Shown here piece after piece: positions 2-16,434 of a stretch of DNA of 42,051 nt. This DNA comes from Bdellovibrionota bacterium. Its GTDB lineage: Bacteria > Bdellovibrionota > Bdellovibrionia > Bdellovibrionales > JAMPXM01. The DNA is taken from assembly GCA_963170185.1 (NCBI GenBank), contig CAUJGS010000026.1:1-42051 (forward strand). Direction: 5' to 3'. The notes below the pieces were generated by a model, which was not told the DNA's origin, did not search any database, and was given only the letters and a program-made list of their open reading frames with translations. The position numbers and the translations under genes were made by a program. How positions within the stretch are numbered: position 1 is the stretch's first letter; each line of letters starts with the position of its first letter.

Positions 2-1060
2 AACCGCTTCGAAGCGCTCTCGCGCGTGTATCGCGACGCGAACTTGAGAACCGTTTCTCTCTATGCGCTTTTTCATCCCACGGTTTCGCTCTTCACGGCG
101 GTTACCGTTGCGACAGCACTTTACGCGGGCGGCTGGATCGCTTCGGAAGGGGCGATTTCAACGGGCGCGATGATCGCCTTCATCTTTCACGTGAAAGACT
201 TTGCCGATCCGCTGCGAAACATCCTCGAGAAATATCAGCTTTTCCAAAACAGCGTTTCTTCGGGCGAGCGAGTATTTGCGCTTTTGCGCGAACAAGAAGA
301 TCACGAAGCTTCAGACCCAGGAAACCTCGGCCAGCCATTTGGCACGGTTCGCTTCGAAGGTGTTAGTTTCCGCTACCATGAAGAGCTTCCCTACGCGCTT
401 GACGGCGTGAGCTTTGAACTTCCAAGAGGAAAAACGTTGGCGGTTCTGGGACGCACCGGGAGCGGGAAATCGACGCTGATTTCGCTGCTACAACGCTTTC
501 GCGACCCCACCAGAGGTGAGATTTTAATCGACGGCCGTCCGCTCGCTGCGATTCCACGAAAGGAAGCACGACGTCGTATCGGCGTCGTGCAACAAGATGT
601 CTTCATGTTCCGGGGTACGATTGAAGAGAACATCGGACTTGGCGACCCTCAAATCTCGCAAGACCGCATCCTTTGGTCGGCACGTGAAGCTGGTCTCGAA
701 CGAATCTTACGTATGCGACCCGGCGGCCTTAAGGCGGACGTCGAGGAAAAAGGGGCCAATCTTTCGGTTGGCGAGAGACAGCTGATCGCCTTTGCGCGAA
801 TTCTCGCGTTCGACCCGCAGATCCTCGTGCTCGACGAAGCCACTTCGAACGTCGACTCCGAAACCGAACGCCTCTTGCAAGCAGCGGCCGTCCGGGCTCG
901 CCGCAATCGCACAAGTATTATCATCGCCCATCGGCTTTCCACCGTTCAGGACTCCGATCTTTGTTTGGTGCTTTCTCAGGGAAGAGTAGAAAAATTTGGG
1001 CGAACAACCGACGTGCTGCCGACACTTACACCGGCTGAGCAACCACGATCGGAAGCTTAA
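2..1060 (+). CDS. Type-I ABC exporter subunit (permease-ATPase fusion), 5' truncated
   Basis: The reading frame is open to the left window edge, so the true start lies outside; a GTG at 26 is in frame but is not the start. About 352 residues are visible. The first ~85 are the end of a type-I exporter membrane domain with two hydrophobic segments. The nucleotide-binding domain follows: Walker A GRTGSGKST, Q-loop VQQDVFMF, signature LSVGE (instead of LSGGQ), Walker B ILVLDEATS and H-loop IIAHRLST. Exporters of this family move lipids, peptides or drugs outward across the inner membrane. The off-consensus signature is common in one half of heterodimeric exporters, so a partner subunit may lie just upstream; that is inference. 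The last 35 bases overlap the 3' end of the convergent histidine kinase gene. Substrate cannot be read from the sequence. Confidence 0.9.
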   Translation, partial: NRFEALSRVYRDANLRTVSLYALFHPTVSLFTAVTVATALYAGGWIASEGAISTGAMIAFIFHVKDFADPLRNILEKYQLFQNSVSSGERVFALLREQEDHEASDPGNLGQPFGTVRFEGVSFRYHEELPYALDGVSFELPRGKTLAVLGRTGSGKSTLISLLQRFRDPTRGEILIDGRPLAAIPRKEARRRIGVVQQDVFMFRGTIEENIGLGDPQISQDRILWSAREAGLERILRMRPGGLKADVEEKGANLSVGERQLIAFARILAFDPQILVLDEATSNVDSETERLLQAAAVRARRNRTSIIIAHRLSTVQDSDLCLVLSQGRVEKFGRTTDVLPTLTPAEQPRSEA

Positions 1061-2741
1061 CGATAAAACGCGTCGACCAGACGCCGTCCATCGCATCATC
1101 CAAGATCAAGTGTCCGCCGTGCTCACGCATCACCGAAGCCGCGATCGAAAGCCCCAGTCCCGTTCCTTGGCCAACCGGCTTGGTCGTAAAAAACGGTTCG
1201 AAGATACGTTCGCGAATCTCTTTGGGCACACCCGGCCCGTTGTCTTCCACGACGATCTCGACAAACGAGGCTCCAGACTCATCTTTCAACGCACGCGCCG
1301 CAATTCGAATCCGGCCGCCAGGTTGAGTGGCGACGGCGAAGAACGCGTTGCTGATGAGATTCAGCAGCACTTGTGACAACTGCACGCGCCGCCCGAGCAC
1401 CTGACAACCAGCTTCGGCTTTCGAATCACAAGCAAGGCCTGTCAAGCTCGTCTCAAGCTTTACGCCCGTCGACTTCATGGTCTCCAAGCAAAGCGCCAGC
1501 GTTTCGTCGATCAACTGCTCAACAGCCACAGCCTCCATCTCGTCGCGACTTCCATCGCGCGCAATGGTTCTTAAGCTTTTGACGATGGTCGAAATTCGAT
1601 GTGCTGTTTTTTCGATTCTGCCCGCGATCTCGTGACTGCGATGCTTTGCGTGTCGACCGTTTTCATCGAGCCCCGCATCCTCGATGTTTTCCAAGACCTC
1701 TCCCAAGCGCGTGGCATAGGCTGAGATAATAGCAAGCGGGTTATTGATCTCGTGAGCCATCCCTCCGGCCATTTCACCAAGACTTGCCAACCGCGACGCC
1801 GCGATCTGCCGCGTGCGTTGCTCCTCGAGCTGTTTTTCCATGTTTTGTCGTTCAGTGATATCTCGGATGACACCGATCACGCCGATCTCGCCCGTCGGCA
1901 AACGCACCGGGCTCTTCTTGGTAAGAATCATACGTGCCTTTTCGCCCCGAATAGATTCTTCCTCAAACTCCTTCGCACTCATCTCCGTTAAAGTAAGATC
2001 GTCGCCCGCCCAGTACAGCTTAGAAAGTTCAGGCGAAAAAAAGTCGAAATCGGTTTTCCCGAGATACTCATCACGCCCCACACCCATGAGTTTGGTGAAA
2101 GCTCGGTTCCCGTAAATCCAACGATGTTCACGATCCTTCATGAAAACCGGGTCGGCGATGGAATCGAGAATGTCCTCGGTAAAACGTTTTTGCCGCTCCG
2201 ACGCCGCGACGAGATCCACCTCGCGAGAAATACTCCAAGACACGCCCTGTAAGGCGCGCGGCTTACCGGAAGCATCACGCAAAACTTCTCCGACCGTTCG
2301 AATGGTCTCAACTTGTTTGTTCTTGGTCAGAATACGAAAACTGATATCGATACGAGATGCCGAGTCGCGAGCCCCTGAGAACTCATTACTAACGGCACCC
2401 TCAAATTCCGCGATGACACGCTCTCGGTCCTCATCGTGAATCATCTGCTTCCACGCTTCGTAGTCGAGGCTCAAACCTCCAGGTGCCGCACCGTAGAGCC
2501 GGTACATGGAGTCGTCCCACGAGCCGCGATTGCGTTGGAGGTCCCACTCCCAAACGCCGATTCCGGCCGATGACATGATCATCTGAAGACGCTCGCGCAG
2601 GCGTTCCGTATCGCGGCGCAAAGCTAAATAACCGATGGCAGAGACTATGCCTAAAAGCGCGATCAATAAGATCACGCTTAAAAACGCGTATCCCTCAAAG
2701 GCGGACCATTCGGTAAGGAAGTGACGCAGTTCCCCCAACAC
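1026..2741 (-). CDS. Membrane-anchored two-PAS sensor histidine kinase
   Basis: A 571-residue HisKA-type sensor kinase. One transmembrane helix (about residues 20-42) is followed by a PAS_3-like domain (about 50-175, with the GVWEWDL motif), a second PAS domain (about 183-300, DPVFMKD) and a short coiled coil. The H-box GGMAHEINNPL gives phospho-acceptor His330. The ATPase domain shows the N-box LNLISNAFFAV, G1 box DNGPGVP, the FEPFFTTK motif and G2 box GTGLGLS. All catalytic motifs look intact and no receiver domain is attached, so a separate response regulator is expected. The start shown is GTG; no strong ribosome site is visible, so it is uncertain. It begins 39 bases after the stop of the coiled-coil gene and may be the last gene of the gliding-like operon. 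Its 3' end overlaps the convergent ABC exporter by 35 bases. Confidence 0.88.
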   Translation of the reverse strand: MLGELRHFLTEWSAFEGYAFLSVILLIALLGIVSAIGYLALRRDTERLRERLQMIMSSAGIGVWEWDLQRNRGSWDDSMYRLYGAAPGGLSLDYEAWKQMIHDEDRERVIAEFEGAVSNEFSGARDSASRIDISFRILTKNKQVETIRTVGEVLRDASGKPRALQGVSWSISREVDLVAASERQKRFTEDILDSIADPVFMKDREHRWIYGNRAFTKLMGVGRDEYLGKTDFDFFSPELSKLYWAGDDLTLTEMSAKEFEEESIRGEKARMILTKKSPVRLPTGEIGVIGVIRDITERQNMEKQLEEQRTRQIAASRLASLGEMAGGMAHEINNPLAIISAYATRLGEVLENIEDAGLDENGRHAKHRSHEIAGRIEKTAHRISTIVKSLRTIARDGSRDEMEAVAVEQLIDETLALCLETMKSTGVKLETSLTGLACDSKAEAGCQVLGRRVQLSQVLLNLISNAFFAVATQPGGRIRIAARALKDESGASFVEIVVEDNGPGVPKEIRERIFEPFFTTKPVGQGTGLGLSIAASVMREHGGHLILDDAMDGVWSTRFIVKLPIVVAQPV

Positions 2742-2780
2742 GGGGCCAGCTCTACCGCGGGCCGTCCCCGCTCGTCTAGC

Positions 2781-3449
2781 TTACTGTGGCTTCAGACGGC
2801 TAAAATTCGCCACAGAGCGCTGCGAGACACGAACTTGCTTCTTCCACTTCTCGATTTCTTGCTCGTATTCCGCTTTTTTTGCCGTCAGACGCTTCTTTTC
2901 GGCAAGAGCCTGTTCCTCTTGGGTGCGCAAAGCGGCCTCGAGTTCGTTCACCGATTGCGTGCGCTCACCAGAGCCTGCCTGGTCGACCGCGACCGCCTGA
3001 AGACGCTGTTCGTAGACCGCGATGTTGGCCTGACGCTTTTCGCGGTTGGCTTCAAGACGCACCAACGCTTGTTTCAGCTCCTCGATCTGACGCTCTTCCG
3101 TAGCAAGCTTGTCGCGCTCTGTTCGCAACTGCCCCTCGACTTCGACCTTGGCGGCCTCGACGGCTTGCGTGTCTTTAACCGCCTGCCCAGTCTGTTTCGC
3201 GATCGCTTGTTTCTGCGATTGAATCGTCTTGAGAGCACGATCGGTTGCTTGCAGGTTCGAATTCACGACACGAAGACCTTGCTCATACTGCTCAAGATTC
3301 GACTGGCTCGCCGAAACGTTTTCTTTGAGCTGCTCCAGTTTCGCTGGAACATCCGTTCTGGCGACGGCGGAAGTTGAAAAACCAAGCGAGGCCAGTCCCA
3401 TCAAAACGGATGTCGCCAAAATTGTATGGCCGGTTTTTGCTTGTTTCAT
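2781..3449 (-). CDS. Exported coiled-coil protein, unknown function
   Basis: A 222-residue protein starting at the ATG at 3449, chosen because an AGGAGG (3456-3461) sits at the right distance and a signal peptide follows (positive MKQAKTGH, hydrophobic core, cleavage near SAVA-R). The mature protein is almost entirely heptad-like helix rich in Gln, Glu, Lys and Ala with few aromatics, so it is probably a long periplasmic coiled coil. Its start overlaps the stop of the 844-residue TPR gene (TGATG), implying coupled translation at matched levels. No enzyme motif is visible. A structural or spacer role in the envelope machine encoded upstream is inference; architecture resembles generic periplasmic coiled-coil proteins and a family name cannot be assigned. 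Confidence 0.85.
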   Translation of the reverse strand: MKQAKTGHTILATSVLMGLASLGFSTSAVARTDVPAKLEQLKENVSASQSNLEQYEQGLRVVNSNLQATDRALKTIQSQKQAIAKQTGQAVKDTQAVEAAKVEVEGQLRTERDKLATEERQIEELKQALVRLEANREKRQANIAVYEQRLQAVAVDQAGSGERTQSVNELEAALRTQEEQALAEKKRLTAKKAEYEQEIEKWKKQVRVSQRSVANFSRLKPQ

Positions 3450-5983
3450 CACATGCCTCCTAGACTTGCTTGCTCGCGCTGCTGCCCGTTTCCAGTAATT
3501 GGACAGTTGTTTTTCAAACTTGAACGATAGTGTCCGATCTCGTCTTCCCAGTACTCGCCATCGAAATCCCATTTCAACGATTTCGATTTTGGAATCACGT
3601 TCGCAGGTACGCGGTTTTCTTTTTCCCCGCCCGCAACTTGGAATCGAATGTTTTCGCCGCTGGCCGCAAAGACCTCGTAGCGAAGCAATTCGTTATTGTC
3701 CATGAACCGCGAAAGGTCCGTGCGCACCTTGAGAATGCGGTTGGCAATGGTCGTTTCCAAACGGCGTTTGATGTCTTGACCGCGTTGATCCGCTCCCACT
3801 CCGACTTCTTTGTTGTATTCCGCTACCGACTTCTTGGCCTCATTAAAGAGATCCACCGAGAAAAAGCGGTCATTAAGACGAAGCATTTCACTTTCAAGAT
3901 CGGCCTGAAGCTGAGCGCGCGTCGCTTCGAATTCCGGTTTGTTGCGGTTAGCGGCCAGTTGCTTACGAATCTGCTCCAAGCGACGACGACTTTGATTAAC
4001 TCTGTCCTGAGCGTCCTTGAGGCTGCGATCGATATCACCGCCGATGCGGGCGTAAATCGCCTTTTCGTCGATCTGGCGGTTCAATGCTTTCTGCAAATTC
4101 AAGAAATCCTTTTGACGAGCGATCTCACGGATCACCGGGCTTGGAAGTCCGTCGACATCCTTCACATCGGTGCGACCTGGTTGATTGAAACCGACCAAGA
4201 ACCGTCGGATCGTACCGTAGCGCCCATCGGAGAACGACTTGATCGACTTTTCATAGGCGTCGATGCTGTTAAGCATCGTCCGATAGTCTTTCTCTAAAAC
4301 CGAAAGCGTTCGGTACGCGTCGCCATATTGGCAAAGGTTTAAATAGCCGATCGTACGAATCACGTACGACTCTGGCTTATAGGCCGCCGCGAAGAACGGC
4401 GAGTGGATCGAATACATATTTCCGATCGCGCCTTCGTAATCTCCCGACATCAGCTGTGCCCAGCCGAGTTCCGAGAGACCTTGCAACCAAAGCGGATGGT
4501 CTTTGTTGACCGTCAAAAACGCCTGATGTGCCTCTTTGTACTTCTGCTCTTGGAAGTACATGCGGGCGAGATTGAGCGCGATCAAGCCCTGAAACTCGCG
4601 CTCGCTATTTTCGGCGCGCGGATTTTTGATCAAAGTCTCTTGCAGTTCCAGTGCGCGCTTCTTTGAACCAATGGAATACTCCGCCAACGCTTCCACGAAT
4701 TTCGCCTGCAGGAAGCGAGGATGTTTCTCTGGAACCTTTTTCGACCATTCAAGTGCCGTCTTGAACTTCTCGGCCGCCGCCGCGCTTTCTGCGATCAGAG
4801 CGGCAACTGTCGCCATAACTTCGGGCGTCTGACCATTGACGACCTCCGGATTCGATACGGCTTTCTCCAAGGCTTCGCCGAACGCACGAGTCGTGACATT
4901 TGGAGTTTTCCAATCCACTTCGCGTAAAAGGCGATTTGCGTAGAAACCACTATTGGGTTTGTTCGAGCCAGGACCACTGACTTCCATCACACGACGAACA
5001 CGCTCGCTGAAGTCGGTCATCAGCCCCAGGCTCTTTGAACACATCGCCAAAAAGTAGTCGGCTTCCGCTTGCCACTCGGGCTTCTTGGAAATCGAATGGA
5101 AAAGCCCCACGGCCGCCGCGCACTGGTGGCCATTTTGATAAAGCAGCAGACCGCTCATGAAGCGATACTCATCGTCAGTCAGCGGCACGTACTTGGCGAG
5201 GCTCAGCTCTTTCTCATCCGTCAACTGCAACTGTCTAAGGACGAGGCCGAGTTTTTTAAGGGTCGCCTCATCCAACGCACCTTTTGCAACCATGAGTTTT
5301 TTCGCCGCGGCGACGGCCTTCACAGCCTCCGGCGCTCGCGTGAGATGCTTGAGTTCGGCCGGTGTCAAAAACTCCGGTGACTGCAGGGCGATTAAAAATT
5401 TCGACTCCAAGGTTTTTTTCTGAGCCGCGCCAAGTTCAAAGCGCCCCAAGGTAAACGGTTGCTCTTTCGGTAGCCGCAGGCGAGGAATCGCATCGACCGA
5501 CTGAAGGTCGTACTTCACCACGCCACTTTCGGAAGTCGACAGCCCCGGGAAACTCACGGTTTCTGAGAAGCTCGATTCGCTGGCCCCAGTGTTTGCAGCG
5601 GTGGTTTGTGTCGCCGGAGCATGAACTGGCGGTGCCACAGCTGGCGCCGTTTGACTAGCGACGGAACGATTGGCGCCTGTCGCCCCACGAGGATTCGTCT
5701 CCGCAGGTTTACGACCGAAAAACTGGCGCGACATCGAAGCGAAAGTTGTTTTTGCTTCTTGAAACTTGGCCTGAAGCCAATTTCCCTCGACCGCCTGCAC
5801 GCGCGGTTTTACCCGCGCCGATGACGAAGTCGATGGACTCGCAGGCTGCGCACCTTGGTCTCGAGCTTCCGCGTAGTCCTTGTTCGGATCAAGCACCACC
5901 GCATCCGCCGAGCCGGCTGCCAGCATCACGACAAGCGCGAAAGCGACCTTCCTGGTAATACTCATGATTTTGCGTTCTCTCAT
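3449..5983 (-). CDS. Exported TPR/coiled-coil protein of the gliding-like operon
   Basis: An 844-residue protein with a signal peptide (residues 1 to about 28, ending SADA-V). It has a Pro/Ala/Thr/Ser-rich linker (about 40-150), a long alpha-helical region with TPR-like repeats (about 175-600; motifs such as AEYSIGSKKRALEL and ALNLARMYFQEQKYKEAHQAF), a coiled coil (about 640-730) and a small C-terminal segment. It is predicted periplasmic. The ATG at 5983 has AGGA seven bases upstream; a second in-frame ATG at 5965 would still leave a full signal peptide. The gene starts 15 bases after the barrel gene and overlaps the next gene. In myxobacteria a periplasmic TPR protein, GltC, works with the outer-membrane part of the gliding machine; this protein could play that role, but the match is by architecture and context only. 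Confidence 0.87.
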   Translation of the reverse strand: MRERKIMSITRKVAFALVVMLAAGSADAVVLDPNKDYAEARDQGAQPASPSTSSSARVKPRVQAVEGNWLQAKFQEAKTTFASMSRQFFGRKPAETNPRGATGANRSVASQTAPAVAPPVHAPATQTTAANTGASESSFSETVSFPGLSTSESGVVKYDLQSVDAIPRLRLPKEQPFTLGRFELGAAQKKTLESKFLIALQSPEFLTPAELKHLTRAPEAVKAVAAAKKLMVAKGALDEATLKKLGLVLRQLQLTDEKELSLAKYVPLTDDEYRFMSGLLLYQNGHQCAAAVGLFHSISKKPEWQAEADYFLAMCSKSLGLMTDFSERVRRVMEVSGPGSNKPNSGFYANRLLREVDWKTPNVTTRAFGEALEKAVSNPEVVNGQTPEVMATVAALIAESAAAAEKFKTALEWSKKVPEKHPRFLQAKFVEALAEYSIGSKKRALELQETLIKNPRAENSEREFQGLIALNLARMYFQEQKYKEAHQAFLTVNKDHPLWLQGLSELGWAQLMSGDYEGAIGNMYSIHSPFFAAAYKPESYVIRTIGYLNLCQYGDAYRTLSVLEKDYRTMLNSIDAYEKSIKSFSDGRYGTIRRFLVGFNQPGRTDVKDVDGLPSPVIREIARQKDFLNLQKALNRQIDEKAIYARIGGDIDRSLKDAQDRVNQSRRRLEQIRKQLAANRNKPEFEATRAQLQADLESEMLRLNDRFFSVDLFNEAKKSVAEYNKEVGVGADQRGQDIKRRLETTIANRILKVRTDLSRFMDNNELLRYEVFAASGENIRFQVAGGEKENRVPANVIPKSKSLKWDFDGEYWEDEIGHYRSSLKNNCPITGNGQQREQASLGGM
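3456..3461 (-). promoter_or_regulatory. Ribosome binding site AGGAGG of the coiled-coil gene
   Basis: A perfect AGGAGG lies six bases before the ATG at 3449. It decides the start in a frame that stays open for a further 41 codons upstream, and it sits inside the last codons of the preceding gene. Confidence 0.85.
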
Positions 5984-5998
5984 GACCGCGTCCTGTCC

Positions 5999-6844
5999 TT
6001 AGTAGTAAAGCGTTAAACCAAACATCAAAATCGATGTCTGCGCCGTCTCTGTATTGACCGACGTCGAAGGCGTTCGGTAACGGACGATCTCTTCTTGAAA
6101 CCAACGATTTTTGAAATCGACTCGAACCGCGGCGTACTTCGAGAAGAAAAACGACTGCGTGACATCAATCGCCACCGTCGGAGCATTCTTTTGCAGGTTG
6201 CCGTCTTCGCGCTGCTGTTCGTAGGTCGTGACACCCACACCCGGCGAAATCGCCATATCAAAGTACATGATGCTCGAATTCAAAATACTCATCTTCGCGT
6301 AAAATGGTACCCAGTTCAGAGAGATCCCCTGATACCCACGGATCTTCCCATGGTTCGCGGTACCCGATTGCGCGCGCAAGTTGTTGAGCGCCTTGTTGTC
6401 GACCGAGTTGGTAACTTGCATGTGACCTTCGACGCCAAGTCGCTCACTGAAATAGTAGCCGAGCGAACCGGAAAAGGTCGGTCCGTCGCTCCATTGGTCA
6501 TTGATGAGGTAGCCATATTGCCCGGTCAGCGCAAATCGCCCTGCCTTCGAGTACAGGCGGTTTTGAACGACGGAAAAGTCGGTGTCCTTGGCCGCCCAAT
6601 ACTTCTTCTCAAGATCCGTCACATCGACTTTTTCATCGCCTGCTGCCGCCGCCGGCTGAGCTTTACCTTGCTGCGCCTCGGCCGAGGAAATGGGAAATAG
6701 CGTCGCAACAGCGACAACCGAAACAAAAGACGAAACAAAAAACGAACCAAAAAACGAGCCGACGAGCGCACTCGCAAGCCCCCTCATGGGGAGCGTCGAA
6801 AGAAGAGTCTGATATTCTGTTTTACTGTGCTTGATCTCGATCAT
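5999..6844 (-). CDS. cglE: Outer-membrane beta-barrel protein, CglE/GltH-like
   Basis: A 281-residue protein with a long signal peptide (cleavage likely after SSAEA, about residue 57). A short linker leads into a barrel of about 170 residues with alternating strands and a C-terminal aromatic ending (LTLYY), typical for BAM substrates. The segment VVQNRLYSKAGRF resembles the start of the outer-membrane barrel family that is common in Myxococcota and Bdellovibrionota. The ATG at 6844 has GAAGG upstream, which supports the long N-terminus. The hydrophobic core of the signal peptide contains an in-frame 12-base tandem repeat (6719-6754). In Myxococcus a barrel of this kind, CglE, is required for gliding and can be exchanged between cells by contact. 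The name rests on architecture and on its place after the TPR lipoprotein and small protein genes. Confidence 0.82.
   Translation of the reverse strand: MIEIKHSKTEYQTLLSTLPMRGLASALVGSFFGSFFVSSFVSVVAVATLFPISSAEAQQGKAQPAAAAGDEKVDVTDLEKKYWAAKDTDFSVVQNRLYSKAGRFALTGQYGYLINDQWSDGPTFSGSLGYYFSERLGVEGHMQVTNSVDNKALNNLRAQSGTANHGKIRGYQGISLNWVPFYAKMSILNSSIMYFDMAISPGVGVTTYEQQREDGNLQKNAPTVAIDVTQSFFFSKYAAVRVDFKNRWFQEEIVRYRTPSTSVNTETAQTSILMFGLTLYY
6719..6754 (-). repeat. Three 12-base tandem repeats inside a signal-peptide coding region
   Basis: Three successive 12-mers (6719-6730, 6731-6742, 6743-6754) differ by one or two bases each. On the coding strand each encodes four residues (FFGS, FFVS, SFVS). The repeat is in frame, so gain or loss of a unit would lengthen or shorten the hydrophobic core of the barrel protein's signal peptide without a frameshift. 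Confidence 0.8.
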
Positions 6845-6858
6845 GGTGCCTTCGTCCT

Positions 6859-7116
6859 TTACTTCACGTACTCAACGGATTCCTTGATATTTTCGTCGAA
6901 ATTCTTCCGCACTTTATAGAGCGGCAAGAACTCAACGACTCGTTTTTGAACAACGTACGCCCCATCTGGGTTACGCACTTGGCCGTCGACATCCATAGCG
7001 TCAAAGTTCACATCCTGAACCTTGCGGTACTGGACCTTCTTCGCAAAAACTGTCGAGGTCGTGAACATTGTGAATGTGATCAAAACCAAATAAATCGATC
7101 TGACGAGTGTCTTCAT
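6859..7116 (-). CDS. cglF: Small exported protein, CglF/GltF-like
   Basis: An 85-residue protein. The ATG at 7116 was chosen over an in-frame GTG at 7125 because AAGGGTGG lies directly upstream and the ATG begins one base after the preceding stop. A signal peptide (about residues 1-25, ending TVFA-KK) is followed by a mature part of about 60 residues with no cysteine, mixed charge and the stretch DVDGQVRNPDGAYVVQKR. Its length, export signal and position between a TPR lipoprotein and an outer-membrane barrel match CglF of the Myxococcus gliding cluster, which is needed for A-motility. The protein may sit in the periplasm or under the outer membrane. The assignment is by context plus recall of the family, not by alignment. 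Confidence 0.75.
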   Translation of the reverse strand: MKTLVRSIYLVLITFTMFTTSTVFAKKVQYRKVQDVNFDAMDVDGQVRNPDGAYVVQKRVVEFLPLYKVRKNFDENIKESVEYVK

Positions 7117-7117
7117 T

Positions 7118-8095
7118 TCAACCACCCTTCTTCGATTGCGCCGGCTGACGGCCAGGCTGAGTTTCTTGAGCCTGTTCTTTTTGAACAGGCTTCATCGATT
7201 TTTCCAAATCGAGAATCTTTTGATTCAAATCAAAACCAACGCGGCCCTTTGAGCGACCTTTTTCCATTGCAACCCGTAGCTCACGCAGCGTCTGCAAAGC
7301 CTTCCCGGGTTCCCCCATCATCGTTTCGTAGACATGCGCAAGCTTCACGCGCGTCTCTGAGACTTCGGGTTTAAGCAAAAGCGCGCGCGACAAGAAGATC
7401 ACGGCGTCGGAACCGTTTTTCTTTTCGACCAGAATTTCGGAAAGACCGCTCAACGCCGGGTAGAGATCCCCTTTGGAATCCAAAGCCAGGCGATAGTGAC
7501 GTTCGGCTTCGTTTAACATGCGATCACGATGGTAAACCTGAGCCAACCAAAGCTGACCTGCCACCATCATCGGATCGAGTTTTACGGCCTCTTTCATTTC
7601 TTTGGCCGCCGATGCCGGCCCCTCTTCACGCTCCAAAAGTCGCGCCTTCTCGAAGCGAACCAGCGCAAGCGGACCACCGGCCTTTTTCTCGGCAAGATCC
7701 AGCATCCAATGCGAACGCAAATACTCGCCACGCCCGGAGGCCGCAAGCCCTAGGAAATAAGCCCCCCAAGGCGAATCCACATGACGCGATGACATCTCAA
7801 GACCAAGCTTCTCCACTTGGTTCCAATCTTGTTTCTGCACGCAGGCGCCGGCCGCCCATACATAGTCTTTCCAATCGGCATCGGCTTCGACAGCCGCGCA
7901 AGCTCGCTTCGGGCTCGAAAAACGAAAGTCATAACTGACAAGATCTTTTAAAAATGGCTTAGCTCGTTCACGAGCGCCAGCATCGAAACTCTTGTCACGA
8001 CGAGGCCCTTCTCCCGTCGCACAACCCACCAGGCCACACGCGACCGCGAGGCTCAAAACAAGCTGAGGTGCTGCTAGAGCGATTCGATTCATCAT
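7118..8095 (-). CDS. gltE: TPR lipoprotein, GltE (AglT)-like
   Basis: A 325-residue lipoprotein: the signal sequence ends in the lipobox LVGC (Cys about residue 25) followed by ATGEG, so outer-membrane anchoring is likely. The body holds five or six TPR-type helical pairs (for example ASAAKEMKEAVKLDP and AERHYRLALDSKGDLYPALSGL). The C-terminus is a Gln/Lys-rich tail. Two adjacent ATGs (8095 and 8092) are possible starts; the first overlaps the preceding stop as ATGA. In Myxococcus the TPR lipoprotein GltE/AglT is part of the envelope-spanning gliding complex and interacts with neighbouring Glt proteins. Here it lies directly after a large exported TPR protein, the same order as gltD-gltE. Function is inferred from order and architecture. 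Confidence 0.82.
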   Translation of the reverse strand: MMNRIALAAPQLVLSLAVACGLVGCATGEGPRRDKSFDAGARERAKPFLKDLVSYDFRFSSPKRACAAVEADADWKDYVWAAGACVQKQDWNQVEKLGLEMSSRHVDSPWGAYFLGLAASGRGEYLRSHWMLDLAEKKAGGPLALVRFEKARLLEREEGPASAAKEMKEAVKLDPMMVAGQLWLAQVYHRDRMLNEAERHYRLALDSKGDLYPALSGLSEILVEKKNGSDAVIFLSRALLLKPEVSETRVKLAHVYETMMGEPGKALQTLRELRVAMEKGRSKGRVGFDLNQKILDLEKSMKPVQKEQAQETQPGRQPAQSKKGG

Positions 8096-11000
8096 GGCTT
8101 ACTCCCTTCGAACATACCCAGAACCTTCCATTCGAATCCGGGCACCAAGCGAGGAAGTTTTTCGACATCCACAGGCTCGGTCACATCTTGTTTCATATTC
8201 AATTTGTCGAGGCGCTGCTGAAGCTGGCCAGCTAGACCATCAAGTCGGGCGGTTTTTTTGGCCGCATCGATCGCTTGAGCCAGCGCTTCGATACCTTTTT
8301 CTTCCATCGGCAGCGCGATCTGTTCGATCTCTTTGGTAAAGGCGTTTTGATCGGACTCCGGCACATCCGAAGGCAGCTTCATCGACCGCACTGTTCGTGC
8401 GTAATCGACATAGAGATCGGCAAGCTTCGCCTGCGCCTCGATCGCCACACCTGGGTCACCCATGCGAGCCGCCGACTGATAGGCTTTTTGCGCCTTCTCC
8501 AACTTCTCCGTTTTAATCGCAAGCACGATCCCGATTCGCTCGACTCGCGCTTTCACGCTCTGTTGACGATATTCATCTTCCAGCACTCGCGCCTGAAGAA
8601 AGCGGGCACGAGCCGGAAGCGACTTCGCCATAGAAAGCTGAGACTCACGGCCGACAACTCGCTTCGCAAGATTGAACGCCCGGTTCGAATCGCCCGCCCG
8701 ATACACGGCTTCCGCTTCTTCAACCAAGAACTGACTCGTTTGCGGCTCCAAGCCAATCGATTCGATTTTCGTGCGAGCCGATGTTATTAATTTGTCGTCG
8801 CCGATTTCTTTCGCAAGCTGGAAGGCTTTTTCCAAACTCTCCGCTTGTTTGTCGCGCGAAAGACCTTTCTCATCGACGGCCTTTAAGAGACTACGAAAAG
8901 CTGTTTCCTTGGAGGTGCGATTCCCCGTCAAAGCGAGGAATTCCGAAGCCAACGAACGCCACATCGAAGCCTTTTCGGACTCCACTTCCGCCAGCGAGCT
9001 TGCGACCTCGGATGCAAGATCCAAACGCGCAATCGACTCGTAAGTCTGCGCCGCTTGCTGCAAACACTCTTTCACATTGGATGCGCCGGGAAACGACTTC
9101 GGCATCTGCGCGCACATACCCGCCGCTTCAGCCACTTCACCCGAACGGAACAGGATTTGGCTCGCATTCCACCAAGCTTTTGGCGCAAGCTCCGACCCCT
9201 TGTTGTCCATCGCAAAGGCGCGATACATATCGACAGCTTTGCGGTGCTCCTCTTTGTTTGAAGCCTTATGTTCCACTTCGCCGACCTCGGCGAACCAAGC
9301 CTCACGACGGATTTTGACCAGCTGGTCTTGGCGCGTTTTGTCCATCGCCTTGCCGCCACCCGAGGCTAACGACTCGGCCAATACCAATAGCTGCTGCGAG
9401 GCCTCTTTCAAGCCCCGGTAGTCTTTGCGAATATTCAAGATGTCGAGATACAGATCCTGAGCCTTCGCTGACTTCGGATGATCAAACGCCTCTTTGGACC
9501 AGCCAAGCTGCTTGAAGCCTATCGCCGCGATATCAAATTTCTCTTTCTCATAAGCGATGAAGGCGCGCTTGAAGCGAACATCCACCGCATACGGACCACG
9601 CGGCGCCATGTGCAGATAGCGATCGCCGAGCTTGGCAAACGCCGTCTCATCGGCATCCGACCATTTCGCTTCACCTACCGCCTTTTCCAAAGCGACCACC
9701 GCGCCATAAGACGCGTCCACGGCCAGCTTCGGATCGGTCTTCATCAGGTCAAACCCGACTTTTTTTGCCTGTGAGTTCTGCGACTCTTCGTAGACCAATG
9801 CGTAGTTTTCACTGGCTTCACGGAAGCGATTGCGAGCAAACATCAAATCCGCGTACGCATAGCGCACCTGCGCCGCTTCATGTCCGACGAGCTTCGTATT
9901 TCCGAGATAGATCTCATACGCCTTCAAAGCATAGTCCGCTGTCTCAGGAAGCTTGTCTTTCTTCCAGTAAGCGTGAAGTTTTGCCCCGAGCTTCTTGGAG
10001 ATCTCGACGACTTTCGCATCACACGGAGCACGTGGCTCAAGCTTTTCGCATACCTGATCCAGCGCCACGAGGTGCTGAACAGCGACGTCACGTTTTTTCT
10101 GACGATCGGCGTTCCAAATCAACTCATCGTGAACATCGGCGATGAGAGTGGTTTTGGGGATACGACTTAAGACATCACGCAGAACCACGTCGACTTCGCC
10201 GTATTTGGAATGTCGTTTGTATATTTCAACTAGGCGAAGAATGTACGGGACCGGGTCGAGATCGCGCGCTTGGCCCATGAAGTACGCCACCGCATCCTGG
10301 GGTTTTCTCATCTCCGAGAAGAAGAGAGCCATGTCACCCAGAGCTTCTTTTCGAAGATCAAGCTTCGCGGCTTCGGTTCCTTCTTTGGCGCGTGCGTGCC
10401 CGAAAGCGACGACCTCTTCAAGAAGCTTCAAGCCTCCGCCTTCGTCTTGCATGTTGTACTTCGCCCAAGCGGCTTTATAAAGACCATATGGGTAAACGCG
10501 CGCCGTTGGATGTTCTTTGATCTTCAAAAAATAGTTCAGCGCATTTGCGAACTGACGACGCGAGAACTGAATCTCGCCCAAAGACAACAGTGCATCCGGC
10601 ACGAGAATCGAGTTCGGGTGCTGACTCAAAAGCCGAAGGAACTGCTTTTCCGCGGCCGCATCGTCACCGACTTGTTGGTAGGCATAGGCCGTATTGAAGA
10701 CGACGACATCACGCGAACGAAATCTTGGAAAGCGGGCCTCAAGATCCAAGTAGATCTGGATAGCTCGACGGATCTGCTTTTTTTCCGAAGCCGAGCTCAC
10801 CAATTCTGGCGCGAAACGTGCGACCTGGTTAGAGTCCCGATGCACCTCGAAAAAACGCTCGGTGCGCGCACGTCGCATGTGAATCTCTCCCAAGCGGAAA
10901 AGAATCTCAGGTTCCATGCGAGTTCCTTTGTGTCGCACGCGTAGCTTTTCCAACTGCTCCAGCGCTCGCTTCTCCGAGCGCATAACAAGCATCTCTGTCT

Positions 11001-11163
11001 TAAGAGCCTTTAACTCGTTACCCTGCTCGTCTCCTGCACGCAGCTTCAACTCGTCTTCGATCGAGCGAGACTTATTGGAGCCCTTTGAGCTCTGTGCAAA
11101 GGCGGGCTCACCAAAGGCAAGACCGACCGTCAAAAGTGAGACTAAGGTAACCACGTTCTTCAT
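8092..11163 (-). CDS. Large exported TPR protein, GltD (AgnA)-like
   Basis: A 1023-residue protein with a signal peptide (MKNVVTLVSLLTVGLAFG..., cleavage near AFA-Q). Almost all of the rest is helical repeat of TPR/tol-pal YbgF type, with recognisable units such as YLDLEARFPRFRSRDVVVFN, AEKQFLRLLSQHPNS and ALLSLGEIQFSRRQFANALN. No transmembrane segment is seen after the signal, so the protein is predicted periplasmic. The ATG at 11163 overlaps the stop of the vWA gene (ATGA), and its own stop overlaps the next start. Large TPR proteins in this position (GltD/AgnA) form the periplasmic scaffold of the myxobacterial gliding machinery and link inner-membrane motors to the outer membrane. That role is proposed here from size, export and synteny. 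Confidence 0.82.
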   Translation of the reverse strand: MKNVVTLVSLLTVGLAFGEPAFAQSSKGSNKSRSIEDELKLRAGDEQGNELKALKTEMLVMRSEKRALEQLEKLRVRHKGTRMEPEILFRLGEIHMRRARTERFFEVHRDSNQVARFAPELVSSASEKKQIRRAIQIYLDLEARFPRFRSRDVVVFNTAYAYQQVGDDAAAEKQFLRLLSQHPNSILVPDALLSLGEIQFSRRQFANALNYFLKIKEHPTARVYPYGLYKAAWAKYNMQDEGGGLKLLEEVVAFGHARAKEGTEAAKLDLRKEALGDMALFFSEMRKPQDAVAYFMGQARDLDPVPYILRLVEIYKRHSKYGEVDVVLRDVLSRIPKTTLIADVHDELIWNADRQKKRDVAVQHLVALDQVCEKLEPRAPCDAKVVEISKKLGAKLHAYWKKDKLPETADYALKAYEIYLGNTKLVGHEAAQVRYAYADLMFARNRFREASENYALVYEESQNSQAKKVGFDLMKTDPKLAVDASYGAVVALEKAVGEAKWSDADETAFAKLGDRYLHMAPRGPYAVDVRFKRAFIAYEKEKFDIAAIGFKQLGWSKEAFDHPKSAKAQDLYLDILNIRKDYRGLKEASQQLLVLAESLASGGGKAMDKTRQDQLVKIRREAWFAEVGEVEHKASNKEEHRKAVDMYRAFAMDNKGSELAPKAWWNASQILFRSGEVAEAAGMCAQMPKSFPGASNVKECLQQAAQTYESIARLDLASEVASSLAEVESEKASMWRSLASEFLALTGNRTSKETAFRSLLKAVDEKGLSRDKQAESLEKAFQLAKEIGDDKLITSARTKIESIGLEPQTSQFLVEEAEAVYRAGDSNRAFNLAKRVVGRESQLSMAKSLPARARFLQARVLEDEYRQQSVKARVERIGIVLAIKTEKLEKAQKAYQSAARMGDPGVAIEAQAKLADLYVDYARTVRSMKLPSDVPESDQNAFTKEIEQIALPMEEKGIEALAQAIDAAKKTARLDGLAGQLQQRLDKLNMKQDVTEPVDVEKLPRLVPGFEWKVLGMFEGSKP

Positions 11164-12158
11164 TTTAACCCCGCAGGATCGAAATCAACCTTGATGCGTG
11201 CACCAGCTTTTGGAATCGCCGTGCCGTGGAAGCGAATGGCATTTGCCGCTTCACGGTAAGACCAGCCGTTGGTTTCGCTCTTAGGCACTTCGACGCCGTC
11301 GACAAAAACACGGATCGTTTCCACCTTGGGATCACGATCAAGTGGGAAGTCCGTGAGAACTTCCAAAACCCGAGAGCGAACATTGGTCAATGCGCGCTTG
11401 AAATCCGCGTCGCAAATCGACTCTTTTGAGCCGGCGCTCGCTGTCGCAAGATCCATGTAGCGAAGACCCGGCGAAGCAAACCCCCACTCTGCCGTCTTGC
11501 AAGCGCTATCCGTCGAGGTCACGCCCATGAAGTGCGCAAGCCAGCTACGGTCGCCATACGGCAAGAGCGGTTTCAAGAAGTCCAACGCCGCGACGTAGTC
11601 GATAGCATTGCTGGACTGATCTTCTTCATTGGTAAGAAAAATGACGTTTAGTAGCGCATCCTGGCGAAGAAAGCCTTCGTTCGCCGCGCCCGGCGACGAA
11701 AGACGAAGTGCCTCCATCATTGCTTCGCGGCCGCGTTCGACAGGTGAACCGCTTTCACCGGCTCGGATACGACCTGCCAATAGCCCGATCAGATTTGGCG
11801 TGTTCTTATTCAAAACTTTGGGTGTTCCGGCTTGGGCCAAAAGCTCCCCGCGCGCGCCGCTTCCGCTCATATCCATTGTCGTCACACCGATTTGGTAATC
11901 GAGGCCCGTCGCATTGAGGCCCTCGATAAACAACGGAACTTGATTCGCAAGCAAGTTTTGGTGTTTGGCCATTGACGAACTCGTGTCGACCACCCACAAA
12001 ACATCGACTTCCGAATTATAGGTCACCTGTTGACCGAAGTTTTTCGACTCCTCTTCAACAGCGAAGGTCTGAGCGCCACATCCCGCAAGGCCACTCATCG
12101 CCAATGAAGCCAGCAGAATCATTTTCGCGTTCTGCAACACTAATTGCACCGTCTTCAT
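11160..12158 (-). CDS. cglB: von Willebrand A-domain lipoprotein, CglB-like candidate adhesin
   Basis: A 332-residue lipoprotein starting at the ATG at 12158. GGAAAGG lies upstream and the ATG overlaps the preceding stop; a 52-codon upstream extension in frame is rejected as it would bury the signal. The signal sequence ends in lipobox LAGC (about residues 20-23). The vWA domain begins with VDVLWVVDTSSSM, whose DTSSS fits the metal-ion-dependent adhesion motif DxSxS, followed by TTMDMSG and the strand VIFLTNEEDQ. A C-terminal domain with RVFVDGVEVP and IRFHGTAIPKAGA is typical of vWA lipoproteins in predatory deltaproteobacteria-like groups. In Myxococcus the vWA lipoprotein CglB is the surface adhesin that couples the gliding machine to the substrate. 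The equivalent role is inferred from fold, lipidation and operon context. Confidence 0.82.
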   Translation of the reverse strand: MKTVQLVLQNAKMILLASLAMSGLAGCGAQTFAVEEESKNFGQQVTYNSEVDVLWVVDTSSSMAKHQNLLANQVPLFIEGLNATGLDYQIGVTTMDMSGSGARGELLAQAGTPKVLNKNTPNLIGLLAGRIRAGESGSPVERGREAMMEALRLSSPGAANEGFLRQDALLNVIFLTNEEDQSSNAIDYVAALDFLKPLLPYGDRSWLAHFMGVTSTDSACKTAEWGFASPGLRYMDLATASAGSKESICDADFKRALTNVRSRVLEVLTDFPLDRDPKVETIRVFVDGVEVPKSETNGWSYREAANAIRFHGTAIPKAGARIKVDFDPAGLK

Positions 12159-13018
12159 GCCGCTGCCTTTCCGCTGCTGCCGTCGTTCTTCCCTGTCGCC
12201 CACGTGTCGATCTGCGACCGAACGTTTTTGTCGAGATCCGAGAATTTCATGCCGTAGACGACCGGAGATTTTGGGTCGCCTGCATGCAGAACACGACGAC
12301 TCATCACTTCGCACGACGTATTGAACGCCGGAGTTTCTTTCGAGGGCTTGATGTGAACGTGAACCTTGTCACCAACTTTGAGCTCTCCCTCAAGCAGCGT
12401 AAGGCTCATACCACCAGCGCCAAGCTCGTGAGATTTTCCCTTAAAGAGCTTCTGATGATTGTGAACGAGTATCGAACCCTCAAATGTCGCGCGTGCGTAA
12501 CGACGGCGAAAGAAGACTTCATTTAAAGTACCGCCGAGTTTGTCGCTTAAGGTGAGACGAAGTTTTTGAATCGCTTCGGGCTGAAACTCGGGAAGCGTCG
12601 CCAAACGCGCCCACTTCGCGAGCTTCTTGTTCCAAACGTAGTCCCAGTCCTGAAGGCCCTTTTCTTGCGTGAGACGAACGAGTTCCAAGTACTCAAATGG
12701 CCCAAAACGATGATCGCCTTTTAGCACGAACCATTCAGCCACGGCCGGAGAATCCTCAGTGCCGCCCTTTGCCTCTTGCACAAGCGTCAAGCGAAGCTGT
12801 TCCCAGAATTCCGAATGCTTGGCAAACGACGGATGAGTTGCAATCGCCACCCAGTCTTGAAGATTTTCATCGTAGATGTGATCAAATGGATCCAACTCTC
12901 GGCGCTCAACTCGAGCGAGGATATCCGTCACGGTGAAACGCCCGATCGGCGTCTCGCCACGCGCGACGTGAAACTGCAAACCTTGGCTTTCATTCTGGTT
13001 TTCAAAAGTTGAATTCAT
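12155..13018 (-). CDS. Tandem GYF-like plus PilZ-domain protein
   Basis: A 287-residue cytoplasmic protein without signal or membrane segment. Residues about 13-65 and 97-145 are two GYF_2-like domains; the second carries the FGPFEYLEL turn and ends in W-ARLATLPEF. Residues about 175-280 form a PilZ domain. The first c-di-GMP motif is present as RRRYAR (RxxxR), but the second, usually (D/N)xSxxG, reads ELGAGG, so binding may be altered or lost. The ATG at 13018 has a good GAGAGGAA site. It is the first gene of the gliding-like operon and its stop overlaps the vWA start (ATGA). A role as the cytoplasmic input, with PilZ sensing c-di-GMP and GYF domains binding proline-rich partners, is inference. 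Confidence 0.85.
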   Translation of the reverse strand: MNSTFENQNESQGLQFHVARGETPIGRFTVTDILARVERRELDPFDHIYDENLQDWVAIATHPSFAKHSEFWEQLRLTLVQEAKGGTEDSPAVAEWFVLKGDHRFGPFEYLELVRLTQEKGLQDWDYVWNKKLAKWARLATLPEFQPEAIQKLRLTLSDKLGGTLNEVFFRRRYARATFEGSILVHNHQKLFKGKSHELGAGGMSLTLLEGELKVGDKVHVHIKPSKETPAFNTSCEVMSRRVLHAGDPKSPVVYGMKFSDLDKNVRSQIDTWATGKNDGSSGKAAA

Positions 13019-13046
13019 GTCGATTCCTCTCCCAAGATTTATCGGC

Positions 13047-13141
13047 CTGAGAACAGAGGGCCTCGAGCACCCCTCCTAGGACGAGGAGGCAAAACCTTTG
13101 CGAATTCAGAGTTTTAAGTGGGAACTATGGAGGGTTCTCAG
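13047..13141 (-). promoter_or_regulatory. Nested inverted repeats in the operon leader
   Basis: CTGAGAAC (13047-13054) and GTTCTCAG (13134-13141) are exact 8-base inverted copies. Inside them CCTCCT (13072-13077) and AGGAGG (13084-13089) form a second 6-base stem. As RNA on the minus strand the region just before the PilZ ribosome site could fold. No known riboswitch motif was recognised. Confidence 0.4.
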
Positions 13142-13167
13142 ACGATCCTGTCGAATCGCTGGACGAA

Positions 13168-13222
13168 AAACAGAAGTTTGCGAGAACAAGTGCGTGCAAA
13201 GGCGAGACACCCAAACAGAAGT
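13168..13222. repeat. Direct repeat pair AAACAGAAGT, 45-base period
   Basis: The decamer AAACAGAAGT occurs at 13168-13177 and again at 13213-13222. The 45-base spacing is a little over four helical turns, as in paired activator sites. The factor is unknown and the function is inferred from position upstream of the operon. Confidence 0.5.
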
Positions 13223-13253
13223 CCACGATCCCGCTAGCAAATTCGCCAGACCA

Positions 13254-13272
13254 AAGCCGCGAATCGCGGCTT
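13254..13272 (-). terminator. Perfect 8-base hairpin downstream of phnE
   Basis: AAGCCGCG, loop AAT, CGCGGCTT is a perfect palindrome about 155 bases past the phnE stop. On the minus strand it is followed only by a short TTT run, so it is at best a weak intrinsic terminator; it could equally be a protein-binding palindrome. Confidence 0.4.
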
Positions 13273-13427
13273 CACACGCATTTCAAAAATGTGACTCAAG
13301 ACGAATCAGAGAGTTCGAAAATTCGTCGAAAACTTCGACACGGATTCGATAGCCGTCGCGCCTATCTCACGCACGTACCCAAGCGCTACGCCGCACAAGC
13401 CAGCGCCAGTAGTTTCACATGTGCGAA

Positions 13428-14498
13428 TTACTTAATAGCGGCGCGGACGTGGGACGAGAAGGCATCCATAATCCACACCACGGCGGCGATGACGAAGATG
13501 ATACAACCGACCTGAGGCCACATCGCCTGACCGTTGTACTCGGCCAACATCACGCCGATTCCGCCACCGCCGACGAATCCGAGGATTGTCGCCATACGCA
13601 CGTTCGTGTCCCAGCGATAAACGGTGTAGCTGATGTAAGGCAAAACAACCTGCGGAACAACGGCGAACCAAATCACCTGCAAGCGCGAAGCGCCCGTCGA
13701 CTCGATACCTTCAATCGGACCGTCCTCAATACCTTCGACGATTTCCGAGTACTGTTTGGCAAGCGACGCAATCGAGTGAACCATCAACGCAAGCATCCCC
13801 GCAAACGGACCGAAGCTTGCCCAGATCGAGAAAATAATCGCCCACAAGATCGGCTCGATCGAGCGCGAAACGTTAAACACCGTTCGCAAAACAGCGTAGA
13901 CGGTGAAACCCAGCTTCGAGCCGCCCATGATGTTTCTCGCCATCAAGAAACTCAAAACAAACGCCACAGGTACCGCGATCACAGTCGCGATGAAGGCGAT
14001 GTAGATCGTCTCAACAACCTTCACGATCGCTTTCGGAAGGATCGACCAGTCTGGCGAGAAGAGTTCACCAAAGAGTCGCATCGCATGATAGAAACGATCT
14101 GCCTCCAAGAGCTTCAGCACGTCGATCTCGGTCATCTTGATGCCGACCAACGTCGTCACCACCACCGTGAGAATCATCTGCATGCCCCAGAACGTGCGAT
14201 AAATCGGCGTCGCCAGTTCTTCCGTCGACTTCATACGGAGATGCGCGGGAGCATAAATCTGCCAGCCTAGAGTTTTGATCCCCGTCTTGTTGACCACGAC
14301 AGACACGATTGCCATCAACACGGCTACACCGAAAAACGCAGTCGCCAGAGTCGGAACCCGTGGAACAATGTCGGCTTCGCCCCAGCCTGTAAACACAAGA
14401 CCGGCGAAGATCAAATAAGCACCGACAAACGCGTCGAGAATCGTTCTGCGCACAGCCGCGCCGGTTTCTGCCGTCTCCATAGTAGTCGATTGCGCCAT
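13428..14498 (-). CDS. phnE: Phosphonate/phosphite-type ABC transporter permease
   Basis: A 356-residue inner-membrane permease of the PhnE family with about six hydrophobic helices. The coupling (EAA-like) loop is clear at about residues 245-275 (EGIEDGPIEGIESTGAS followed by VVPQV), and the family's C-terminal GFVGGGGIG motif is present. It is longer than many PhnE proteins (260-290) because of an N-terminal extension with extra helices (about 20-70). The ATG at 14498 has AGAGG upstream and starts 9 bases after the phnC stop. It forms the membrane channel for the ligand delivered by the PhnD-like lipoprotein. No C-P lyase or phosphonatase gene is present nearby, so the actual substrate (phosphonate, phosphite or another anion) is open. 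Confidence 0.92.
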   Translation of the reverse strand: MAQSTTMETAETGAAVRRTILDAFVGAYLIFAGLVFTGWGEADIVPRVPTLATAFFGVAVLMAIVSVVVNKTGIKTLGWQIYAPAHLRMKSTEELATPIYRTFWGMQMILTVVVTTLVGIKMTEIDVLKLLEADRFYHAMRLFGELFSPDWSILPKAIVKVVETIYIAFIATVIAVPVAFVLSFLMARNIMGGSKLGFTVYAVLRTVFNVSRSIEPILWAIIFSIWASFGPFAGMLALMVHSIASLAKQYSEIVEGIEDGPIEGIESTGASRLQVIWFAVVPQVVLPYISYTVYRWDTNVRMATILGFVGGGGIGVMLAEYNGQAMWPQVGCIIFVIAAVVWIMDAFSSHVRAAIK

Positions 14499-14507
14499 GT
14501 CTAACCT

Positions 14508-15290
14508 CTAGTTGATGTGAACTTCTTTAGCGCCTTCACCGTAGATCTGCGCAAACCATTTGTCGTCGATGTCACTAGGCGAACCTTCGTAAACAAGCTT
14601 CCCGCCTTTAAGCGCAATCACGCGCGTGGCATACTGGCGAACCAGCGAGAGGAAGTGAAGGTTACAAATGATCGTGAGCCCAAGCTCCTGATTCACGCGA
14701 CGAAGATAGTCCATGACGATGTGGCAAGTTGCAGGGTCCAAGCTTGCAACCGGCTCATCAGCCAAAAGCAAGTCTGGTGACTGCGTCAGCGCACGCGCGA
14801 TCGCGACACGTTGCTGCTGTCCACCCGAAAGCTGAGCGGCACGAAAGTGCGCCTTGTCTTGAATGCCCACAAGCCGCAGGTATTCCATCGCTCGTTTCTC
14901 GTCTTCCTTCGCGTACAAGCCCAGCATCGACCGAAGCGAACCTGTCGAACCAAGCGAGCCGTAAAGGACGTTGTTCAAAACCGAGTGACGAGGGATCAGG
15001 TTGAAATGCTGAAAGATCATGCCCATCGTGCGGCGGATCTTTAGGATCTCGTTGCCTTCGGCTTGCGCGATATCGTGTTCGACCCCCGCTTTGTCGGTGT
15101 AGAGAATCTCGCCGGAAGTCGGATGATGCAGCCGATTCAAACAGCGAAGCATCGTCGATTTCCCGGAACCCGAAAGTCCAATGACAACCAAAAACTCGCC
15201 CCGCTTAACGTCAAACGAAACGCCTTTCAGCGCCTGTGTGCCATTCGGGTAAGTCTTTACGAGATTGCGAACCGAAAGAATATTGCTCAT
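14508..15290 (-). CDS. phnC: Phosphonate/phosphite-type ABC transporter ATPase
   Basis: A 260-residue ATPase with all ABC motifs: Walker [11 protein letters not shown]-loop FQHFNLIPR, signature LSGGQQQR, Walker B LLLADEP and the D-loop SLDP. The switch histidine is in NLHFLSL. PhnC proteins of phosphonate importers show the same unusual CNLHFL region rather than the common THD motif. The ATG at 15290 overlaps the stop of the phnD-like gene (ATGA), so the two are translated together. It powers the PhnE channel at the inner membrane. Confidence 0.93.
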
Positions 15291-16231: not shown

Positions 16232-16434
16232 GTGATAGCCCCCTTTAAGCTCTCTAAACTCTAGCGAGGTCCGCTTGTAGCAGGCGGTTTCCGAGGCGGC
16301 AAGCAAAGCAGCTGGCGAGGTTCTCCGCAAGAGCAGATGACGCCACGCGACTCATGCCTACGAAACAGGCTCTGGCAAAGGATCTTGCGACCTTGCCCTA
16401 ACCCTCACACGAGATCTCTGCTAAGCTGCCTGAT
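16232..16434. other. 203-base divergent intergenic region
   Basis: Separates the divergent phnD-like and HAD genes and must hold promoters for at least the phn operon. GCGAGGT occurs twice in direct orientation (16264-16270 and 16315-16321). I recognise no Pho box or riboswitch consensus. Confidence 0.5.

Follow-up and report, generated by a model that had tools for sequence, protein, structure and literature searches.

The closest described systems to the one considered here are the Agl-Glt machinery of Myxococcus xanthus (clusters G1, G2 and M1) and the Bd1473-Bd1483 genes of Bdellovibrio bacteriovorus. With Bd1482 and Bd1483, the latter already provide an example of a gliding operon that starts with a PilZ gene and includes a MIDAS gene (PMC3271064, PMC2277423, PMC11003981), and Bd1482 has been proposed as an input of cyclic di-GMP (c-di-GMP) into gliding (PMC3271064). 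The stretch analyzed here, contig C26 of a 3.5 Mb draft genome of a Bdellovibrionota bacterium (42,051 nucleotides, hereafter the window), carries a related unit of Glt genes. Sequence comparison makes it probable that the envelope half encoded in the window works with an unlinked operon on contig C40 of the same genome as one Bdellovibrionales Agl-Glt machine with a motor of another lineage. A Glt machine of this kind is already known; new are its division between two operons, one for the envelope and one for the motor, and the evidence pointing to motor exchange.

The envelope operon of the window

The unit consists of eight tightly packed genes on the minus strand, reading from position 13018 to 2781 in the order PilZ/GYF, MIDAS lipoprotein, GltD, GltE, GltF/CglF, outer-membrane barrel, GltC and coiled coil (TPR, tetratricopeptide repeat).

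12155..13018, minus strand: g1, cytoplasmic protein of 287 amino acids carrying two GYF_2 domains plus PilZ at the C-terminus, operon head (Pfam GYF_2 2e-12, PilZ 5e-11, above cut-off)
11160..12158, minus strand: g2, von Willebrand A/MIDAS lipoprotein, predicted surface adhesin (NCBIfam MIDAS adhesin 1e-18, CglD 3e-6)
8092..11163, minus strand: g3, GltD-type periplasmic TPR scaffold, 1023 amino acids (TPR matches; signal peptide by reading)
7118..8095, minus strand: g4, GltE-type TPR lipoprotein, 325 amino acids (TPR matches, weak NCBIfam GltE match of 2e-4, lipobox by reading, position)
6859..7116, minus strand: g5, GltF/CglF-type small exported protein, 85 amino acids (NCBIfam CglF, NF033764, 4.9e-11)
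5999..6844, minus strand: g6, outer-membrane beta-barrel in the GltH/CglE position (NCBIfam TIGR04565 OMP_myx_plus, 6e-21, above cut-off)
3449..5983, minus strand: g7, GltC-type TPR protein, 844 amino acids (NCBIfam GltC, NF033756, 8.7e-29)
2781..3449, minus strand: g8, exported coiled-coil protein, conserved last gene of the unit (comparison with relatives)

An earlier note, made from the letters of the window, had described these eight minus-strand genes with overlaps at five junctions. The open reading frame coordinates and the recurrence of the genes in relatives confirm the unit, but start and stop overlap at only four junctions (12158/12155, 11163/11160, 8095/8092 and 3449/3449), since gltE and gltF are separated by one base (the gltE stop ends at 7118, the gltF ATG lies at 7116). 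Gaps of 14 and 15 bases separate gltF from the barrel gene and the barrel gene from gltC, respectively. Inside the unit, no sigma-70-like promoter or terminator stood out above shuffled controls. All eight genes recur in identical order and strand in three relatives (G003, G004 and G012), and five further members of the window's family (G001, G006, G007, G008 and G010) keep the arrangement as far as their contigs reach; most of the proteins share 46-83% identity with their counterparts in the family. Because of this recurrence in the same order and on the same strand, the arrangement is not due to chance, and the eight-gene operon is real.

The prediction that the window holds the envelope half of an Agl-Glt-type machine, comprising periplasmic scaffold, outer-membrane barrel and MIDAS adhesin, is supported by several lines of evidence. 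The note had derived such a half from the Myxococcus order gltD-gltE-gltF-gltH, and a corresponding order of putative gltD and gltE genes, gltF and barrel gene is indeed present; the profile matches for CglF/GltF, the barrel and the MIDAS protein, as well as for GltC, which the note had not named, strengthen this part of its proposal. In g2, the lipobox cysteine (Cys27) and the DxSxS motif are kept in A2/A4, and the AlphaFold model (predicted local distance difference test score, pLDDT, 86) resembles domains of the integrin beta I type; a direct sequence search of the PDB gave no match. Lipobox, DxSxS metal site and von Willebrand A fold together characterize g2 as a MIDAS/CglB-like adhesin. 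The MIDAS tree identifies it as the ortholog of a gene at 3,008 kb in B. bacteriovorus HD100, whereas orthology with Bd1483 was ruled out, as Bd1483 falls in another MIDAS clade.

The remaining proteins were assigned from profiles, models and gene order. g3 is a conserved partner of GltE and GltF across the Bdellovibrionales and, by tblastn (4e-41) and gene order, is related to the GltD of a compact GltC-GltD-GltE-GltG cluster in Lujinxingia vulgaris (L165), which represents a core complex outside the Bdellovibrionota. g5, with 44-82% identity across the order, scores 42.5 bits with NF033764, below the curated cut-off of 90, and g7 scores 100.7 bits with NF033756, below the cut-off of 450; both were counted as homologs. 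GltC-type matches were found in all 40 genomes searched, mostly with several paralogues. The AlphaFold model of g6 is a barrel that matches OmpA and OmpW barrels. By reading, the seven products other than the PilZ protein look exported.

Compared with Bd1473-Bd1483, orthologous GltD, GltF, GltC, barrel and coiled-coil genes occur in the same order, and PilZ and MIDAS genes stand at the 5' end in both. However, the B. bacteriovorus operon includes the motor (AglR, Bd1481; AglQ, Bd1480) and GltG, which lie on another contig in the window's genome, and no separate GltE was found in Bdellovibrio clusters. With M. xanthus, the system shares the predicted GltD-GltE-GltF order, GltC, GltG, AglRQS, a CglB-type von Willebrand adhesin and the dispersal of machine genes over clusters. 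It differs in that PilZ/GYF genes head both clusters here, and in that GltC goes with GltD, GltE and GltF while GltG goes with the motor.

The motor unit on contig C40

The note had remarked that AglRQS is absent from the window, which is correct. Its suggestion to look for aglRQS homologues elsewhere in the genome proved productive: searches of the genome's other contigs, with stretches of them read, revealed the orthologous unit PilZ/GYF-AglR-AglQ-AglS-GltG on contig C40, beside a SelO gene. The three motor proteins match PF01618 (1.5e-26) and PF02472 (4e-13 and 2e-12), corresponding to one MotA/ExbB and two ExbD proteins. The C40 GltG, with a forkhead-associated (FHA) domain and an AgmX/PglI-type C-terminus, matches NF033760 below the cut-off (2.4e-47) and NF033768 above it, and has its best matches among the in-cluster GltG proteins of other families. 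Likewise, the C40 AglR lies within the clade of in-cluster AglR proteins (support 100*), and those MotA/ExbB-type genes from the rest of its genome that the tree included fall outside it. A paralogous motor from another Glt set is ruled out by this tree.

The division is a property of the whole family. Where contigs extend far enough, the other family members have the five-gene unit too, in the same order and mostly beside the same neighbours, and an AglR of the C40 class was found once each in 11 of the 12 relatives. GltG accompanies GltF and the barrel in 54 of the 57 loci that span GltD/GltF to the barrel; the three without it (L087, L090 and L142) all belong to the window's family, in which AglRQS and GltG are absent from the cluster in every locus spanning the site. 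An assembly artefact is unlikely, as G003, a member of the same genus, and G004 (both 98% complete, about 40 contigs each) also carry the two units on separate contigs, each with its flanks intact. Besides the C40 locus (L036), whole Glt clusters of Bdellovibrio-type genomes (L131, L146 and L153) also have a SelO-type gene nearby, in varying orientation. Further Glt-like sets occur on contigs C66, C51, C134, C100 and C108 of the genome; C100 ends inside GltD and the AglRQS genes of C108 are close to the contig end, so that these two contigs may be neighbours.

Members of the window's family possess two PilZ/GYF genes, one heading each operon. The first PilZ tree left the window copy unplaced, but added sequences and the omission of three long branches resolved two clades, the window-type copies forming one (97/92) apart from the C40-type copies. 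Bdellovibrio also has two PilZ/GYF genes, most genomes with an undivided cluster one. For g1, the domains predicted in the note are present. It retains RxxxR but reads ELGAGG in place of (D/N)xSxxG, with the serine lost, and does not carry the full motif pair of PilZ c-di-GMP receptors. The same type of serine loss occurs in some relatives of the window copy, while the C40 copy reads EASEGG at this position. Among the PilZ/GYF proteins read, RxxxR is present in all and the second motif is mostly ExSxGG, not (D/N)xSxxG.

Probable different descent of motor and envelope half

Orthologous clusters occur throughout the Bdellovibrionales, usually with AglRQS and GltG inside. The usual order in other families is PilZ-(MIDAS)-AglR-AglQ-AglS-GltD-GltE-GltF-GltG-barrel-GltC-coiled coil, abbreviated below with P for PilZ/GYF, V for MIDAS, R Q S for AglRQS, D to G for GltD to GltG, H for the barrel, C for GltC and K for the coiled coil. 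At the same site as in the window, next to phnDCE and ABC transporters, three loci (L158, L152 and L091) hold the intact cluster P V R Q S D E F G H C K, and L161 holds it without PilZ. Since intact clusters occupy this site elsewhere, it is probably the ancestral one, from which AglRQS and GltG have since gone. Positions 2-36409 of the window are largely collinear with 3,006-3,030 kb of G039, a genome whose gene positions match those expected of B. bacteriovorus HD100; the main interruption of this synteny is the block of Glt genes that separates the MIDAS and ABC-transporter genes in the window. HD100 has only a PilZ-MIDAS pair here (3,008-3,010 kb; phnDCE, ABC transporters and cdgA within 30 kb), with 44% identity for MIDAS and 33% for PilZ/GYF. 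This pair stands alone in Bdellovibrio, whereas six Glt genes follow it in the window. One of five GGDEF genes of HD100 carries the GVNEF motif reported for CdgA (Bd3125), and by counting locus tags back from Bd3125 we infer that the MIDAS gene is approximately Bd3099.

The histories of the two halves disagree. In a tree of concatenated D, F, H, C and K, the window's family (f1) groups with G029 of family f6, which has an intact cluster (support 100*). In the AglRQS tree, all motors located outside the slot between PilZ/MIDAS and GltD, those of families f1, f4 and f8, form one clade (100/99). Forcing the f1 AglRQS beside G029 costs 175 log-likelihood units (approximately unbiased (AU) test, p 7.6e-47 for RQS alone), and the same constraint with GltG added gives an AU p of 2.3e-42; the tested groups were picked after the first trees, which makes these p-values optimistic, though the margins are large. 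Displacement of the motor requires one change on the RQS tree as compared with four on the envelope tree, and RpoB puts f1 next to f9 with f6 close by, while f4 and f8 fall elsewhere. Because the envelope and motor trees conflict, f1 seems to combine an envelope half of old standing with a motor that descends from elsewhere. The simplest reading is that the f1 AglRQS is a motor of another lineage and not ancestral to its envelope half, and we infer that the trees conflict because the motor was replaced, not because of an ancient duplication followed by loss. Whether a single AglRQS lineage has spread between Bdellovibrionales families and several times replaced the built-in motors of Glt clusters, the f1 machine also being divided into two PilZ/GYF-headed operons, is evenly balanced. 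Split tol-pal loci (PMC12204202) resemble this arrangement in that motor genes lie apart from the outer-membrane partners of one trans-envelope machine; unlike our reading for f1, the consulted passages describe no exchange of motor lineages.

A possible but less favoured explanation is that an early ancestor possessed two AglRQS sets of which families lost one or the other, so that the machine was split without transfer of a motor. This would fit the single old clade of displaced motors, the two distinct PilZ/GYF lineages in both f1 and Bdellovibrio, and the SelO-type genes that neighbour the motor unit of f1 and certain Bdellovibrio-type clusters. However, nearly every genome has one close AglR (E 1e-30), second matches being distant paralogues of 35-39%, and many independent losses would therefore be needed. 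In addition, an AglR tree with the genome's other motors as outgroup nests the displaced group among in-cluster motors, near those of f5 and f10.

Proposed function

By analogy with Myxococcus, GltG, a transducer resembling TonB, would draw its energy from the AglRQS proton channel, and the force would pass via GltD, GltE and GltC to the barrel and the MIDAS adhesin, which at the surface would give traction. As the other products of the unit look exported and g1, like the C40 PilZ/GYF protein, is cytoplasmic, g1 would play its part on the side of the motor or in regulation, and the PilZ/GYF proteins may place the machine under second-messenger control. Products of the window and C40 operons would assemble physically, and gliding is the likely output. 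In B. bacteriovorus, bd3099 and bd1480 (aglQ) are both surface-induced and both lower in mutants of Bd0367, which is needed for gliding (PMC9140294), and mutants with a transposon in Bd1481 or Bd1483 were less able to prey on biofilms (PMC2277423). The window joins in one operon a Bd3099-type MIDAS adhesin, a PilZ/GYF protein and Glt envelope proteins that are separate in the model predator. This shared operon names a candidate adhesin and a candidate regulator, and, judging from the disagreement between the trees, motor and envelope parts seem to be modules that can be separated.

Several points weigh against an exchanged-motor gliding machine. Searches against the Glt and Cgl families gave no profile-model match to GltD for g3, and the NCBIfam matches for GltC, GltE and CglF are all below their curated cut-offs. 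The motor trees rest on 587 columns, and an old duplication with repeated loss could yield the same displaced clade. GltG shows no clear agreement with either history: in its tree, f1 with G029 is not rejected (p 0.23) and a joint clade of f1 with the genomes that have displaced motors is weakly rejected (p 0.035); movement of GltG along with the foreign motor is unsupported by these tests. Deletion of bd1483 left predation normal (PMC11003981), Myxococcus GltH, I, J and K are reported absent from Bdellovibrio (PMC3169522), and the source organism is uncultured and known from a draft genome alone.

Service of the operon in a non-gliding surface task still driven by C40, such as attachment to prey or substrate or an Nfs-like envelope transport, is rather unlikely. 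The Agl-Nfs machinery works in spore coat assembly (PMC3858216), and the four Bdellovibrio sets differ in expression (PMC2797640, PMC12546842), but joint surface induction of bd3099 and bd1480 under the gliding-required Bd0367 speaks for gliding. It is improbable that another motor of the genome (C66, C51, C134 or C108) drives the window's half while C40 serves something else: ten MotA/ExbB-type genes and several further Glt sets are present in the genome, but the other close sets have motor genes nearby, except the truncated C100, and only the C40 AglR is orthologous to motors inside this cluster elsewhere. A motor-independent adhesion complex, as the note had suggested from the lack of a motor gene in the window, and for which a relative with the cluster but no close AglR found (G014, 83% complete) might also speak, is very improbable because the orthologous motor and GltG are present on C40 and the split is family-wide. 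The cluster of G014 (L043) reads P V D E F G H C K, and either sequence is missing from this assembly or it is truly motorless with respect to the C40 class.

Flanking genes and further loci

1026..2741, minus strand: g9, PAS-PAS histidine kinase (Pfam PAS, HisKA, HATPase_c), 39 bases after g8
13019..13427, minus strand: likely promoter region, a leader of 409 bases that separates g1 from phnE and is the unit's longest upstream gap
13428..16330, minus strand: phnE-phnC-phnD-like transporter, conserved upstream landmark outside the machine

The kinase follows the g8 stop at the distance given in the note (2741-1026), but as part of the operon tail it is accessory. Among five relatives it is present at this position in G003 and missing in G004, G012, G007 and G001. 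In terms of loci, L038 has the counterpart, with 51% identity, and none follows g8 in L037, L039, L040 and L055. A role as a core machine part was rejected, as it is rarely conserved there. The phnE-phnC-phnD-like neighbour is common to many families and to the B. bacteriovorus PilZ-MIDAS pair. Searches of the window region for tRNA genes and Rfam families gave no match.

At higher coordinates than the transporter, a GGDEF-type gene (34826-36409) is collinear with cdgA (Bd3125) and 25% identical to it, with a degenerate site (...ARVDRHRF...). A TPR protein (26779-28743) with a GYF-like N-terminus by eye (no Pfam call) lies beside a lipoprotein, and this pair is conserved in Bdellovibrio. Three tandem MIDAS lipoprotein genes follow the coiled-coil and GltC genes at L120:19731-22898. 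A Bdellovibrio-type Glt cluster was also found in L143, which is labelled Streptomyces griseus and is probably a mislabelled or contaminated metagenome-assembled genome.

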